Source: Planctomyces sp. SH-PL62
Lineage (GTDB): Bacteria; Planctomycetota; Planctomycetia; Planctomycetales; Planctomycetaceae
Assembly: GCA_945893075.1 (NCBI GenBank)
Contig: CAMDDX010000007.1
Coordinates: 1 to 54,187 of the forward strand
Direction: 5' to 3'
DNA length: 54,187 nucleotides
Positions within the stretch are counted from its first letter, which is position 1, and every line of letters begins with the position of its first letter. The notes beneath the pieces were generated by a model. The model was not told the DNA's origin and made no database searches. It worked only from the letters and a program-made list of their open reading frames with translations. Positions 11,379 to 52,445 of the stretch are shown here, piece by piece. A program made the translations under genes and the position numbers.

Positions 11379-11769
11379 GATGGACTCTTCTAAGCTGGCG
11401 TCATCTTTAGAGACGTGCTGTGAAAAGCCACGTCCCCTCCGGTTCGTCATCGGAAGACTTGCGCGGTCAGCTAAACCTGTCTGGTCAAAGCGCCTGGCGA
11501 ATCTGGAAAACCGGGTCCGATCAGAACGGTCGTGCTGACCAAAGCCGGCCGATCCAGTTTTCCCAATCGCTTCAGGAGTTCTTCGTTTGCCGGCGGTCGC
11601 TCGAAAAGCGACTCACTCCGGCTTGTGAGAGATACTGCGGTTGGGTTCGCTCTGGACCAAGCTGGCATAAGATGAAGGGCGAAAGATGAACCGCAGGGGG
11701 CAGGTGCCTGCCTTTATTTTCCGCCCTCCATTTTCCGCCAGCCTGTCCGAACAGATTTCCCATCGCCCC
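11379..11769. other. Divergent intergenic region
   Basis: Holds the 5' regions of the SthA-like gene (left) and the helicase (right) and a palindromic element at 11661-11742. A minus-strand open frame at 11471-11668 (65 residues, containing FERPPANEELLKRLGKLDRP) has a partly coding-like composition. Its ATG lies in the palindrome and no ribosome-binding site is visible, so it is not called as a gene. Confidence 0.4.
11661..11742. repeat. GGCGGAAAA-type palindromic element (copy 1)
   Basis: GCTGGCATAAGATGAAGGGC...GCAGGTGCCTGC...TTTTCCGCCCTCCATTTTCC-GCCAGC. The outer arms are inverted copies, with a small inner palindrome GGCAGG-tg-CCTGCC. The same arm sequence recurs at 17471, 22876 and 28048. 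It ends 27 bp before the helicase start. Confidence 0.7.
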
Positions 11770-13728
11770 ATGAAATCCACCGATCACTTTCAAAACCTGT
11801 TGCATTGCCTCGAACTGGAAGCCGAAGCGGAAGCCAACGACGTTGTGAAACTGTCTCGGCAAACGAGCGGCGAGTTCGCCGAGCGATCCGGCCGATGCCT
11901 GCTCGGCCTGGCGATTCGGGAGGAAGCAGCCGGGTTCGGTGGGCGAGTGTTGCTGACGCTGGGCAAGCGCGATCGGCGCGCCGAGTTGCCGTGGACGAAG
12001 TTGAGTTCTGGCAGCCCGGTCGTCCTCTCCGAAGAGCATGCTGTGGAAAGCGTCGCGTGTCGTGGTGTCGTTACCAGTCGCGATCGCGAGACGATCACGG
12101 TCGCGCTGACTCAGTCTCCGGAGCCGAACAATGATCGGCCGACGTTTCGTTTGGATTGGTCGTCGGATGAAATTTCGCGCGAGCGGCAACGAGCGGCACT
12201 CAAGCAAGTCGCGGCGGCGGATCACGGTCGGCTCGCGGCGCTCAAGCGAAAGTTGCTCGGTGAAGAATCGCCGGAGTTCGATGATTTTGTAGCCGCGCTT
12301 CGCCAGAACGCGGGTCTTGGGTCAGATGCCCGCGTTCTGGCGAAACGCGGCTACACAACGGATGCGGGGCCGCTTGATGAATCGCAATGCGCGGCGGTTG
12401 CTCATGCGTTGTCGGCGAAGGAGGTCGCGGTCATTCATGGACCGCCGGGGACGGGGAAGACGACCGCGGTCGTGGAACTCATTCGGCAGGCGGTACAGCG
12501 CGGCGAGCGAGTGCTGGCATGTGCTCCCAGCAATCTGGCGGTTGACAACTTGCTGGAACGATTGCTCGCGGCGGGCGAGCGAGCGATTCGCGTGGGACAT
12601 CCGGCTCGCGTGTTGCCGGAGTTGCGCGAGCACACGCTCGACCTGCAAGTGGCGGCGCATCCCGATTTGAAGTTGGCTCGCGAGTGGAAAAAGCAGGCGT
12701 GGGCACTGCGGCGTCAGGCGAGCAAGTTCACGCGAACCGCTCCGGAGAAAGGCGCGCGACGCGATCAACGGGACGAAGCCAAGCGATTGCTGTCCGATGC
12801 GCGGAAGATGGAAGAGCGGTTGGTCGCGCACCTGCTCGAATCATCGACGGTCGTGTGTGCGACGCTGACGGGACTCGATGATGAATTGCTTGGCCAGTTG
12901 CAGTTCGACTTAGCGGTGATTGACGAAGCGGCTCAGACGACCGAGCCAGCCTGTTGGATTCCGTTGCTGCGAGCCAAACGGTTGGTACTCGCGGGTGATC
13001 ATTGCCAGTTGCCCCCGACGATTCTTTCGAGCGCAGCGAAGCAACTCGGCTTTGATGTCAGCCTGATGGAGCGGCTCGTCGCGAGTTGGGGCGATGTGAT
13101 CTCGCGGCAACTCACGACGCAGTATCGGATGCACGAGCAAATCATGCGGTTCTCGTCCGACGAGTTCTACGATTCCTCGTTGATTGCCGCCGACTGCGTG
13201 CGCGAACACGTCTTGGCCGATCTGGCTCACGTCGCCCCCTGCCCTCTCACTCAAACGGCAATGCAATTCATCGACACGGCTGGCTCGGACTGCGTCGAAC
13301 AGGCGGAGGCCGACGGATCGAGCCGCAACAATCCGGGAGAAGCGGACATCGTCGCTCGGCAAGTTCAGGAGTTGCTGGCAGCGGGTGTCGCTCCGTCCGA
13401 GATCGCGATCATCACGCCGTATGCCGCGCAAGCTCGGCTGCTGCGAACGCTGCTCGACAACGCAGCCATCGAGATCGACACCGTGGATGGCTTCCAAGGG
13501 CGTGAGAAGGAAGCGGTCGTGATTTCGCTGGTCCGCTCGAACACGACCGGCGAAGTCGGCTTCCTGTCCGACACGCGCCGCACGAACGTCGCTCTCACAC
13601 GAGCACGCCGCAAACTGATCGTCATCGGCGACAGCAGCACGCTGGCCAATCATGAGTTTTATCGGCGGCTGCTTGACCATTTCGAACGCGAAGGAGCGTA
13701 CGGAATCGTGTGGGATCTGCCGGCGTGA
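11770..13728 (+). CDS. Superfamily 1 DNA/RNA helicase, UPF1/IGHMBP2-like
   Basis: A 652-residue SF1B-type helicase. An N-terminal beta-rich domain (about 1-170, with the LPWTKLSSGSPVVLS segment) precedes the core: Q-motif-like LDESQCAAVAHAL, Walker A GPPGTGKTT (224-232), Ia CAPSNLAVDNLLERL, Walker B DEAAQTTEP (385-393), GDHCQLPPT, TQYRMHEQIM, and the C-terminal TVDGFQGREKEAVVISLVRS and NVALTRARRKLIVIGD. This is the IGHMBP2/UPF1 arrangement, so ATP-driven 5'-3' unwinding is expected. A 66-bp palindrome is inserted in frame at residues 174-195. ATG 11770 opens MKSTDHFQNLL. Confidence 0.9.
   Translation: MKSTDHFQNLLHCLELEAEAEANDVVKLSRQTSGEFAERSGRCLLGLAIREEAAGFGGRVLLTLGKRDRRAELPWTKLSSGSPVVLSEEHAVESVACRGVVTSRDRETITVALTQSPEPNNDRPTFRLDWSSDEISRERQRAALKQVAAADHGRLAALKRKLLGEESPEFDDFVAALRQNAGLGSDARVLAKRGYTTDAGPLDESQCAAVAHALSAKEVAVIHGPPGTGKTTAVVELIRQAVQRGERVLACAPSNLAVDNLLERLLAAGERAIRVGHPARVLPELREHTLDLQVAAHPDLKLAREWKKQAWALRRQASKFTRTAPEKGARRDQRDEAKRLLSDARKMEERLVAHLLESSTVVCATLTGLDDELLGQLQFDLAVIDEAAQTTEPACWIPLLRAKRLVLAGDHCQLPPTILSSAAKQLGFDVSLMERLVASWGDVISRQLTTQYRMHEQIMRFSSDEFYDSSLIAADCVREHVLADLAHVAPCPLTQTAMQFIDTAGSDCVEQAEADGSSRNNPGEADIVARQVQELLAAGVAPSEIAIITPYAAQARLLRTLLDNAAIEIDTVDGFQGREKEAVVISLVRSNTTGEVGFLSDTRRTNVALTRARRKLIVIGDSSTLANHEFYRRLLDHFEREGAYGIVWDLPA
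12289..12354. repeat. GTAGCC palindromic element inside the helicase coding sequence
   Basis: A 66-bp inverted repeat, GTAGCCGCGCTTCGCCAGAA ... ending TTCTGGCGAAACGCGGCTAC, with a 14-bp spacer. It is a close match to 42164-42229 (same 66-bp length and arms, different spacer) and resembles 19872-19924. Its length is exactly 22 codons. It is read as VAALRQNAG...ARVLAKRGY, with GTA rather than TAG in frame. Confidence 0.85.
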
Positions 13729-15619: not shown

Positions 15620-15984
15620 TCTTCCACAGACAGTCAGGCGAGTGGGCAGCGTCCGCCCGATGGCACGCACATTGATCAGCCGGAATGCGCTAGCGTCCGG
15701 TTCGGTCACACAAACACCGACAAACCGGACGCTAGCGCGTTCCGGCTCATCATCACACTCATCAAAGCCATTCCGCTCGCCTGTGAGTTATCGCGAGGAT
15801 TCCCAACGTGCGGGTTACGAAGAGTCATTTCATTCGTCGCGGAGTGACGACTTCTCGCATCGCACGAGCCATCAATGGGAAGCTCGCCAGAATCGGCCTT
15901 GAATCCTCGAAATCCGCGACTCACCGCTCGATCTATAGGTGAGACTCCCCAGTGGACTTGATGCCTGCCATAAGGATGCGCGCG
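15620..15984. other. Intergenic region with a palindromic element
   Basis: Between the CocE-type and multiheme genes. It contains an inverted repeat at 15678-15747 (AGCCGGAATGCGCTAGCGTC and its inverse). The remaining 240 bp show no coding pattern or clear promoter. The annotated start of the multiheme gene could also lie a few codons earlier (15952, 15961 or 15976). Confidence 0.5.
15678..15747. repeat. Palindromic element, AGCCGGAA type
   Basis: Inverted arms AGCCGGAATGCGCTAGCGTC-CGGTT and AACCGGACGCTAGCGCGTTC-CGGCT, about 25 bp each with one or two mismatches, around a 20-bp spacer. Confidence 0.75.
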
Positions 15985-42163: not shown

Positions 42164-42229
42164 GTAGCCGCGTTTCGCCAGAACGCGGGCGTGTGGCCGA
42201 AAACCCGCGTTCTGGCGAACGGCGGCTAC
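42164..42229. repeat. GTAGCC palindromic element (66 bp) between cpaA and tadE
   Basis: GTAGCCGCGTTTCGCCAGAA ... CGTTCTGGCGAACGGCGGCTAC. Same 66-bp length and arms as the copy within the helicase gene (12289-12354), with different spacer sequence. Confidence 0.85.
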
Positions 42230-50693: not shown

Positions 50694-52445
50694 GTGTCGC
50701 CGCTGGAACCGAATTGGAAACGGCGTCGCCTGCGTGCTCCCCGCGAAGAGGGTGAAGTCCTGGCGATTCCGCCGCTGGCCGACATGCCCGCCACGATTGC
50801 ACAGAATCGCGAGCAGATCGCCCAATGGAATGTGCCAGTTCTCGGCAGGCCGCTGGCTGATCTACGTCGCCTAGCTCGCGAAGAAGCACTGACGGCGGCC
50901 AAGCGATTCACACACCAACCCGACGCGCCAGCAAGGGACAGCCTGACGCGACGAGCGAGCCTCGACGTACCGCTCATCGTCGGTGGCCACCAGCCGGAAT
51001 TGTTTCACCCCGGCGTCTGGGCCAAGAACTTCGTGCTCGATGGTCTGACCAAGGCCACTGGCGGCATCGGCCTGCATTTGATCGTGGATAACGACGCGAT
51101 CACTTCCACGAGCATCGCCGTCCCCGTCGGCTCGCGCGAACAACCGCGCATTGAGCACATCCCCTTCGATACCGACGCCGGTTCGATGCCGTGGGAGGAA
51201 GCTCGGCTTCGCGATGAGAGTTTGTTTCGTTCGTTCCCCGACCGCGTCGCCGCTGCCCTGTCCTGCTGGCCGATCGAGCCCATGCTGTCGGTCCTCTGGC
51301 CGGCCGCAATCGCGCTTCTTCCCAGCGTCTCCGAACAACCTCGCCCACGCCTCGTCGATTTGCTGACCGTCGTCCGCCGCGAGGCCGAACAACGGGCCGG
51401 CCTCAGTCATCTCGAACTTCCCATCAGCCAACTCTGCGAAACGGAATCCTTCGCCTGGTTCGTATGCAGCCTGCTAAGCGATCCGCGACGGACACACACG
51501 ATCTACAACGAGGTCGTCGCCGAGTACCGCCGCGTCAATCGAGTTCGCAATCGGCAGCGTCCGGTCCCCGACCTCAGCATTCACGCCGACGGTGACTGGT
51601 TGGAGTTCCCGTTCTGGGTCTGGCAACCGGGAGACTCGCAGCGCGGCCGGCTATTTGTCCGAGCGACGACAAATGAGATCCAGCTTGCGAACGGAGAGAG
51701 CATCATCACGTCTCTACCTCTCCCGATGTCCGGCGCGGCCGAGTCCGCCGTCGCACAACTGCGAGCGTTGTCCTCACGCGGCTGGAAGCTGCGCCCGCGA
51801 GCGCTCACGACCACGCTGTTCGCGCGAGTCCTCCTCGCCGATGCCTTCCTGCACGGCATCGGCGGAGCCAAGTACGACGAGATGACCGACCGCCTGATCG
51901 CGCGCCTCTTCGGAGTCGCACCGCCGAACTATCTGACGGTGACGGCAACTCACCGCCTGCCGCTCAGCAGTTGGAACGTCACCCCGTCCGACGTCGCCGC
52001 ACTCAACCATCGCCTCTGGGACTTCGATCACAATCCAGAGCGTTTCATTGCAACGGATCGGCGAACGGAGAGCGTCAGCCCTCTGGTCACATACAGTTCC
52101 GAGATCACCGGAGGGCTGACGCTCCCCGTTCGCTTGGAATTCACCGCGCTGCTCACCGAGAAGCATCGCTTGATTGCCGAGCAACAGACTCAAGACACCC
52201 TCGACCGCCACGATCCACGCCGAGCCTCACACGCGGAGAACGATCAACGCCGCCGCCGCTTGCGAGCGATCAATCGACACCTTGCCACGCTCGCCAGCGA
52301 AACCCGCTCGGCGCTCACCGCCGACCTGCAAGTGGCCGAAAACCACCTCGCCGCCAATGCCGTGCTGCGCAGCCGCGAGTACTCGTTCTGTTTGTTCTCA
52401 AACGCAGACGACGTGAGCCGCCGAGTTGCCGGCGGAGCCAGGTAG
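50694..52445 (+). CDS. Large protein of unknown function with in-frame repeat insertions
   Basis: A 583-residue protein. A segment VGGHQPELFHPGVWAKNF faintly resembles the GxQPxLF motif of BshC enzymes, but overall the sequence was not assigned. GTG 50694 has AAGGAG 9 bp upstream. Two stretches look like inserted repeats read in frame: 50910-50966 (HQPDAPARDSLTRRASL) and 52061-52133 (RTESVSPLVTY...ITGGLTLPVR). The rest has regular soluble-protein composition. Confidence 0.6.
   Translation: MSPLEPNWKRRRLRAPREEGEVLAIPPLADMPATIAQNREQIAQWNVPVLGRPLADLRRLAREEALTAAKRFTHQPDAPARDSLTRRASLDVPLIVGGHQPELFHPGVWAKNFVLDGLTKATGGIGLHLIVDNDAITSTSIAVPVGSREQPRIEHIPFDTDAGSMPWEEARLRDESLFRSFPDRVAAALSCWPIEPMLSVLWPAAIALLPSVSEQPRPRLVDLLTVVRREAEQRAGLSHLELPISQLCETESFAWFVCSLLSDPRRTHTIYNEVVAEYRRVNRVRNRQRPVPDLSIHADGDWLEFPFWVWQPGDSQRGRLFVRATTNEIQLANGESIITSLPLPMSGAAESAVAQLRALSSRGWKLRPRALTTTLFARVLLADAFLHGIGGAKYDEMTDRLIARLFGVAPPNYLTVTATHRLPLSSWNVTPSDVAALNHRLWDFDHNPERFIATDRRTESVSPLVTYSSEITGGLTLPVRLEFTALLTEKHRLIAEQQTQDTLDRHDPRRASHAENDQRRRRLRAINRHLATLASETRSALTADLQVAENHLAANAVLRSREYSFCLFSNADDVSRRVAGGAR
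50910..50966. repeat. In-frame repeat-like insertion in the 50694 gene
   Basis: ACACACCAACCCGACGCGCC-AGCAAGGGAC followed by GACGCGACGAGCGAGCC. It is recalled as a frequent planctomycete intergenic repeat, here read in frame. The identification rests on memory, not on a second copy in this window. Confidence 0.5.
52061..52133. repeat. In-frame palindrome in the 50694 gene
   Basis: Arms GCGAACGGAGAGCGTCAGCC-CTC and inverse GAGGGCTGACGCTCCCCGTT-CGC (22 of 23 positions match), 27-bp spacer, 73 bp in total. It lies inside the coding sequence with the frame kept open. Confidence 0.75.

Follow-up and report, generated by a model that had tools for sequence, protein, structure and literature searches.

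GTAG REPs, the closest described relatives of the element considered here, have Planctomycetes among their hosts, and the published account (PMC3733652) tabulates them with a stem of 5-13 bp and a loop of 2-20 nt. Dimers of these repeats are also described inside genes, where they code for 20-30 residues, with RNA helicases among the targets. In recB of two Xanthomonas, different REPs lie at about the same site. The same source offers a position in flexible linkers or loops as a possible explanation for the tolerance of intragenic REPs, alongside the speculation that repair genes changed in activity through such insertions (PMC3733652).

The window, that is the whole stretch of DNA analysed here, comprises 54,187 nt of contig CAMDDX010000007.1 from Planctomyces sp. 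SH-PL62. It contains a helicase gene interrupted in frame by an element of this kind, with the following features.

11686 to 13728, plus strand: IGHMBP2/SMUBP-2-type SF1 helicase gene, 680 aa counted from 11686; TIGR00376, domain, PDB and Foldseek matches
12289 to 12354, plus strand: dimer of a GTAG REP, head to head, giving 22 codons (VAALRQNAGLGSDARVLAKRGY)
12289 to 12313, plus strand: left REP monomer, GTAG-CCGCGCT-TCGCCAG-AACGCGG, with 1 mismatch to the family consensus
12314 to 12329: spacer of 16 nt, particular to the helicase copy
12330 to 12354, minus strand: right REP monomer, exact consensus
42164 to 42229, plus strand: intergenic copy of the helicase REP dimer; orthologous copy in congener G003, another palindrome in G010

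The segment 12289-12354 is a palindrome of 66 nt running from GTAG to CTAC, whose fold as single-stranded DNA has an energy of -34.1 kcal/mol and a z of -9.8, equalled by none of 200 shuffles. The consensus arm alone forms the hairpin of a GTAG-type REP, with GTAG, a 7-bp stem and a 7-nt loop, and the element is therefore a head-to-head REP dimer, two such hairpins joined by a spacer. Its left arm agrees with the dispersed repeat in 24 of 25 bases and its right arm in all 25. In the reading frame counted from 11686, position 12289 is codon 202, and the insert takes up codons 202-223, all of them open, with GTAG read as GTA-G. The preliminary description had reported a 66-bp palindrome of 22 codons, in frame and with GTAG read as GTA without a stop, and its sequence and coordinates are correct. 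The intergenic copy that it had named at 42164-42229 is likewise present, equal in length, with one and two differences in the arms and a different spacer. That the GTA reading avoids a stop is true but nothing special, as only one of the three forward frames, the one reading TAG, contains a stop and the other two avoid the TAG of GTAG.

The host protein is of the IGHMBP2 type: it scores 534.4 bits against TIGR00376 (cut-off 348.9), shows the domains SMUBP-2_HCS1_1B, AAA_11 and AAA_12 in a domain search, and matches PDB entries 4b3g/4b3f at E 1e-124 and at E 3e-60 with Foldseek. The ATG at 11770 is a likelier start than 11686, because homology starts only near residue 29-33. The insert has the 1B domain (residues 39-145) on one side and the AAA_11 core (230-448) on the other, just as had been proposed when the site was placed between an N-terminal domain and the ATPase core. 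In an AlphaFold2 model of the helicase (mean pLDDT 84.2, pTM 0.82), residues 208-227 are the sole stretch of at least three residues besides the N-terminus with pLDDT below 50, a low value that is partly expected at the insert, since no homologue in the alignment carries it. The gene is open and all columns invariant among 16 homologues are kept; the protein probably still works. The helicase of congener G001 (L065) has additional residues near query position 466-475, and no palindrome scoring 18 was found in this locus.

The arm belongs to a repeat family that is widespread within the genus. Four matches to the 25-nt arm occur in the window at up to 3 mismatches (0 in each of 100 shuffles), and the whole genome, here G000, holds 98 monomer matches (49 + 49) at up to 2 mismatches. 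Among the 59 genomes searched, the family was found in 10 of the 12 of the genus and in 0 of the 47 outside it, with 0 matches in each for a reversed-pattern control. In the stretches fetched from G000, dimers, defined by up to 6 mismatches an arm and no indels, occupy 39 of 51 places, and thus the high copy number and the dimeric arrangement of GTAG REPs are both found. The copy numbers are probably lower bounds, because contigs end at REPs: at least 12 contigs in G000, G003, G004, G007 and G010 start or end within about 60 nt of one.

In the fetched loci of seven genomes, the spacer measures 13-22 nt in all 70 dimers and exactly 16 nt in 35 of them. The arms of 36 G000 dimers (the 39 minus two in L215 and the one in L221) have a mean identity of 98.3% to the consensus, with 51 of 72 arms perfect. 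The 22 spacers of sixteen nucleotides share a mean pairwise identity of 57% (31% when shuffled), and 15 of them are at least 70% like one sequence on either strand; the spacers thus look old and diverged. Ten pairs of copies at sites common to species have arm identities of 0.94-1.00 and spacer identities of 0.73-0.95, with one of 0.52, and the copies are therefore older than the species split unless they were exchanged between species. An origin of the spacer as captured host DNA is unsupported: the mean match to the spacer's own slot in relatives was 6.84, against 6.73 for other spacers, over 25 sites. At one shared site (L044 on G000:C119 and L251 on G004:C313), the two genomes show no difference over 800 nt next to the REP, compared with a likeness of mostly 73-95% at other shared sites, which is possibly a binning error or a recent transfer.

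A Y1/RAYT-type transposase would be the likely mover, by analogy with the GTAG end and the hairpin form. The G000 assembly, 92.9% complete and in 484 contigs, contains eight matches to Y1_Tnp, of which seven lie above the cut-off. This REP was found beside none of these eight Y1 loci, several of which end at contig ends, and a search with four of the eight proteins against 97 REP loci (332 kb) gave no match. A Y1 transposase gene with a DnaA-type helix-turn-helix match (L013:1462-2589, on G000:C203) carries a near-perfect palindrome of about 100 nt (99-100) in frame, and two further copies lie one upstream of it and one at its 3' end.

The helicase gene was found in nine congeners, no orthologue having been found in G003 and G008. 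By direct count, the linker between the 1B domain and the core has 16 residues in G010, G007, G011, G009 and G002, 11 in G001 and 31 in G000 (28 by the alignment count). The helicases of G010 and G007 are 88-92% identical in protein and are without the insert. The linker of G000 has thus gained 15 residues, not 22, and about 7 old residues went when the 22 came. The comparison proposed earlier, of the junction with homologues lacking the 22 residues, therefore reveals an insertion, but not a clean one (31 vs 16 residues). The linker is free of long palindromes in six of the nine congeners. In the other three, G004, G005 and G006, it contains a different palindrome in frame, of CAGCCGG..CTAGCG type, a type that by eye is also present in the window.

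15673 to 15752: intergenic palindrome that by eye belongs to the CAGCCGG..CTAGCG type of the G004, G005 and G006 helicase linkers

Two further palindromes of other sequence occupy the helicase linker in L070 (G047) and in L091 (a Gemmataceae genome). Across 100 homologues (20 loci from a first search and 80 kept of 277; one of them, L105, ends early at the linker), the linker has 1-17 residues in 94 and 28-42 in 6 by the alignment count. All 6 long linkers hold a palindrome, with arms of 21-30 nt and four sequence types among them, and L109 alone among the shorter-linker homologues passes the palindrome cut. In the helicase gene tree the genes with the second palindrome fall into separate groups (L057 and L058 with L061 at 0.847, L059 with L062 at 0.977), which loss, recombination or a tree error could explain.

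The dimer, its copy number, the reading frame, its absence from congeners and the repeated use of the helicase linker are established. Very probably, a GTAG REP dimer that among the genomes searched occurs only in this genus inserted in this lineage into a loose helicase linker and has been tolerated there, most likely as a near-neutral change. The dimer would have inserted, in a recent event, into the part of the gene coding for the linker that joins the 1B domain to the RecA-like core. With its 66 nt, its frame and its absence of stops, it would leave the gene open. A linker that tolerates extra residues would have let it persist, and the insert would add 22 probably disordered residues in place of about 7 old ones.

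True domestication, in which the 22 residues confer a new property such as binding, regulation or stability and are kept by selection, is quite unlikely. It draws on the comparison of G004 with G006. In 43 codons at the linker palindrome, 7 changes are synonymous and 3 non-synonymous, giving a pN/pS of 0.15 where the rest of the gene has 0.11, while the G004 palindrome has decayed to a score of 15 against 26 in G006. Against the third carrier, G005, the ratios are however 0.74 and 0.68, and in three insert-free pairs the linker gives 0.31, 0.55 and 0.56, values that suggest loose constraint. In addition, 6 of 9 congeners manage without any such palindrome, and the G000 insert, unique to G000 among the genomes searched, is still a nearly consensus repeat. 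The preliminary description had called the element a likely example of a palindromic repeat domesticated into a protein. The entry of a dispersed repeat into the gene in frame holds; a gained function is not supported, and survival by tolerance in a loose linker explains the insert without one. That description had also passed over the dimeric build of the element and the other palindromes that occupy this linker elsewhere.

The palindrome might instead act as RNA, with an mRNA hairpin slowing ribosome or polymerase and the protein segment as a by-product. This agrees with the very stable fold (calculated with DNA parameters) and with the presence of long palindromes in 12 of the window's 24 intergenic gaps, but in 6 of 9 congeners the gene persists with a linker free of long palindromes, and we regard such a role as highly improbable. 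An assembly artefact, in which two contigs were wrongly joined at a repeat, is scarcely credible: contigs do break at REPs, as seen above, but both sides of the insert belong to one helicase gene, in frame with the orthologues of nine congeners. An ancestral segment with later loss in relatives, the alternative that the preliminary description had named as its refutation, is of negligible probability: 94 of 100 homologues have a short linker, the insert is missing from the two nearest congeners and from four more, and the arms match a dispersed repeat almost perfectly.

The reading as a tolerated insertion into a loose linker can be set beside other genes with in-frame palindromes, one of which lies in the window.

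50694 to 52445, plus strand: second window gene with in-frame palindromes, 583 aa, no Pfam match
50910 to 50966 (approximate ends): slot A of this gene, a decayed CACCAGCCCGACGCGC-type palindrome
52061 to 52133: slot B of this gene, an in-frame palindrome; a palindrome of other sequence is there in G010

Slot A is of GTGGGGCAGG type in G007, G003, G002 and G010 and of CACCAGCCCGACGCGC type in G006, G004, G011, G005 and G009, with a decayed CACCAG type in G000; G001 has a third type, and in G008 none scores 14. Both main types follow the same phenylalanine codon, and their starts are no more than about one codon apart. By parsimony, a tree built from the remainder of the protein requires three changes between the two main types; several supports in this tree are low (30-57) and those placing G000 are 79-84. 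Recombination between species could also explain the pattern. In G006, the orthologue has a further palindrome at about residue 510.

A spermidine-synthase-like frame of 826 codons in G000 (L029:497-2974, minus strand) contains the dimer of this REP, in frame and before the synthase domain. In G007 the REP sits where two contigs end, the two halves of the gene lying on either side, and G010 has a different palindrome array, in frame, at the same place. The helicase and this gene are the intragenic dimers backed by orthologues. L207:710-2818 (minus strand, G010), with a degenerate REP dimer in frame between M56 peptidase and WD40 matches, is likely a third. In L226 (sulfatase) and L249 (patatin) a domain lies on one side of the dimer only. 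Altogether, 26 frames have at least 50 codons on both sides of a dimer, and ten proteins were scanned; many open frames across dimers are probably spurious in GC-rich DNA.

The number of unrelated types per slot is two for the helicase linker within the genus and four among its homologues, three for slot A and two for the spermidine-synthase-like linker. In three genes, the second window gene among them, unrelated palindromes are thus found to use the same protein linker. A bolder idea would be that linkers in this genus are reusable docking slots in which unrelated palindromic cassettes replace one another, an existing palindrome perhaps attracting the next, and that species exchange REP-coded linker peptides; we consider it unlikely.

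Palindromes are also common between the genes. The window holds 14 scoring at least 18, and 10 shuffled windows hold none. By crude gene calls with 50 nt added each side, 14 of its 24 intergenic gaps reach a score of 14 and 12 reach 18, with several sequence types. Some gap palindromes have GTAG..CTAC ends and arms that are themselves hairpin-like. Two segments of the window, 1051-1338 and 2261-2548, form a 288-nt direct repeat of 94% identity.

Nearly all of 25 REP sites in G000 lie between conserved flanks that look intergenic, and at most of them the relatives' sequence between the flanks is unrelated, as expected between genes, though many open frames cross the dimers. A script applied to 60 site-relative pairs scored 23 as another palindrome (at least 18), 12 as a weaker one (14-17), 8 as the same REP and 17 as none, some of the last being slots that end at contig ends. 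By eye, two of the eight same-REP calls (L040/G007 and L023/G010) are chance motif matches with another palindrome, and L051/G010 is a REP variant. In a control at a single setting, 41 of the 60 slots reached 14 and 30 reached 18, compared with 0 of 300 shuffles reaching 14; of 300 random window segments, 11 reached 14 and 7 reached 18. Since about half of the window gaps hold a palindrome anyway, the sharing of intergenic slots is about what chance would give and needs no special explanation, and we do not propose a directed exchange there.

These observations have two kinds of significance. Close congeners with and without the insert make the helicase a well-framed case of a dispersed repeat becoming protein sequence, one in which every long form of the linker goes with a palindrome across the 100 homologues compared. 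If unrelated palindromes truly succeed one another, these genomes would also allow the study of repeats remodelling proteins and of hairpins attracting hairpins. Beyond recB, no account was met of sister species in which several unrelated palindromes had come to use one linker, in searches that were not aimed at this point and covered few subscription journals.

The element and its insertion are of a known kind, as GTAG REPs, their dimers, intragenic copies, helicases as targets and Planctomycetes as hosts are all in print. The host protein shares family and fold with human IGHMBP2/SMUBP-2 (PDB 4b3f, 4b3g), which has a shorter stretch at the place of the linker and gaps opposite the insert in the alignment. 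Rickettsia palindromic elements, as described in PMC10969869 and PMC3733652, are likewise palindromes lying in frame in unrelated genes, and this is also found here. They are set apart by their description, being about 150 bp long and of Rickettsia, whereas the present element has 66 bp and the layout of a REP dimer. The GTAG REPs of PMC3733652 are closer, with GTAG-tailed hairpins, head-to-head dimers and in-frame insertion. That account covers 24 families, to which the present one is likened by layout; the family described here was found in one genus only, and it is accompanied by linkers in three genes that are each used by unrelated palindromes in different species.
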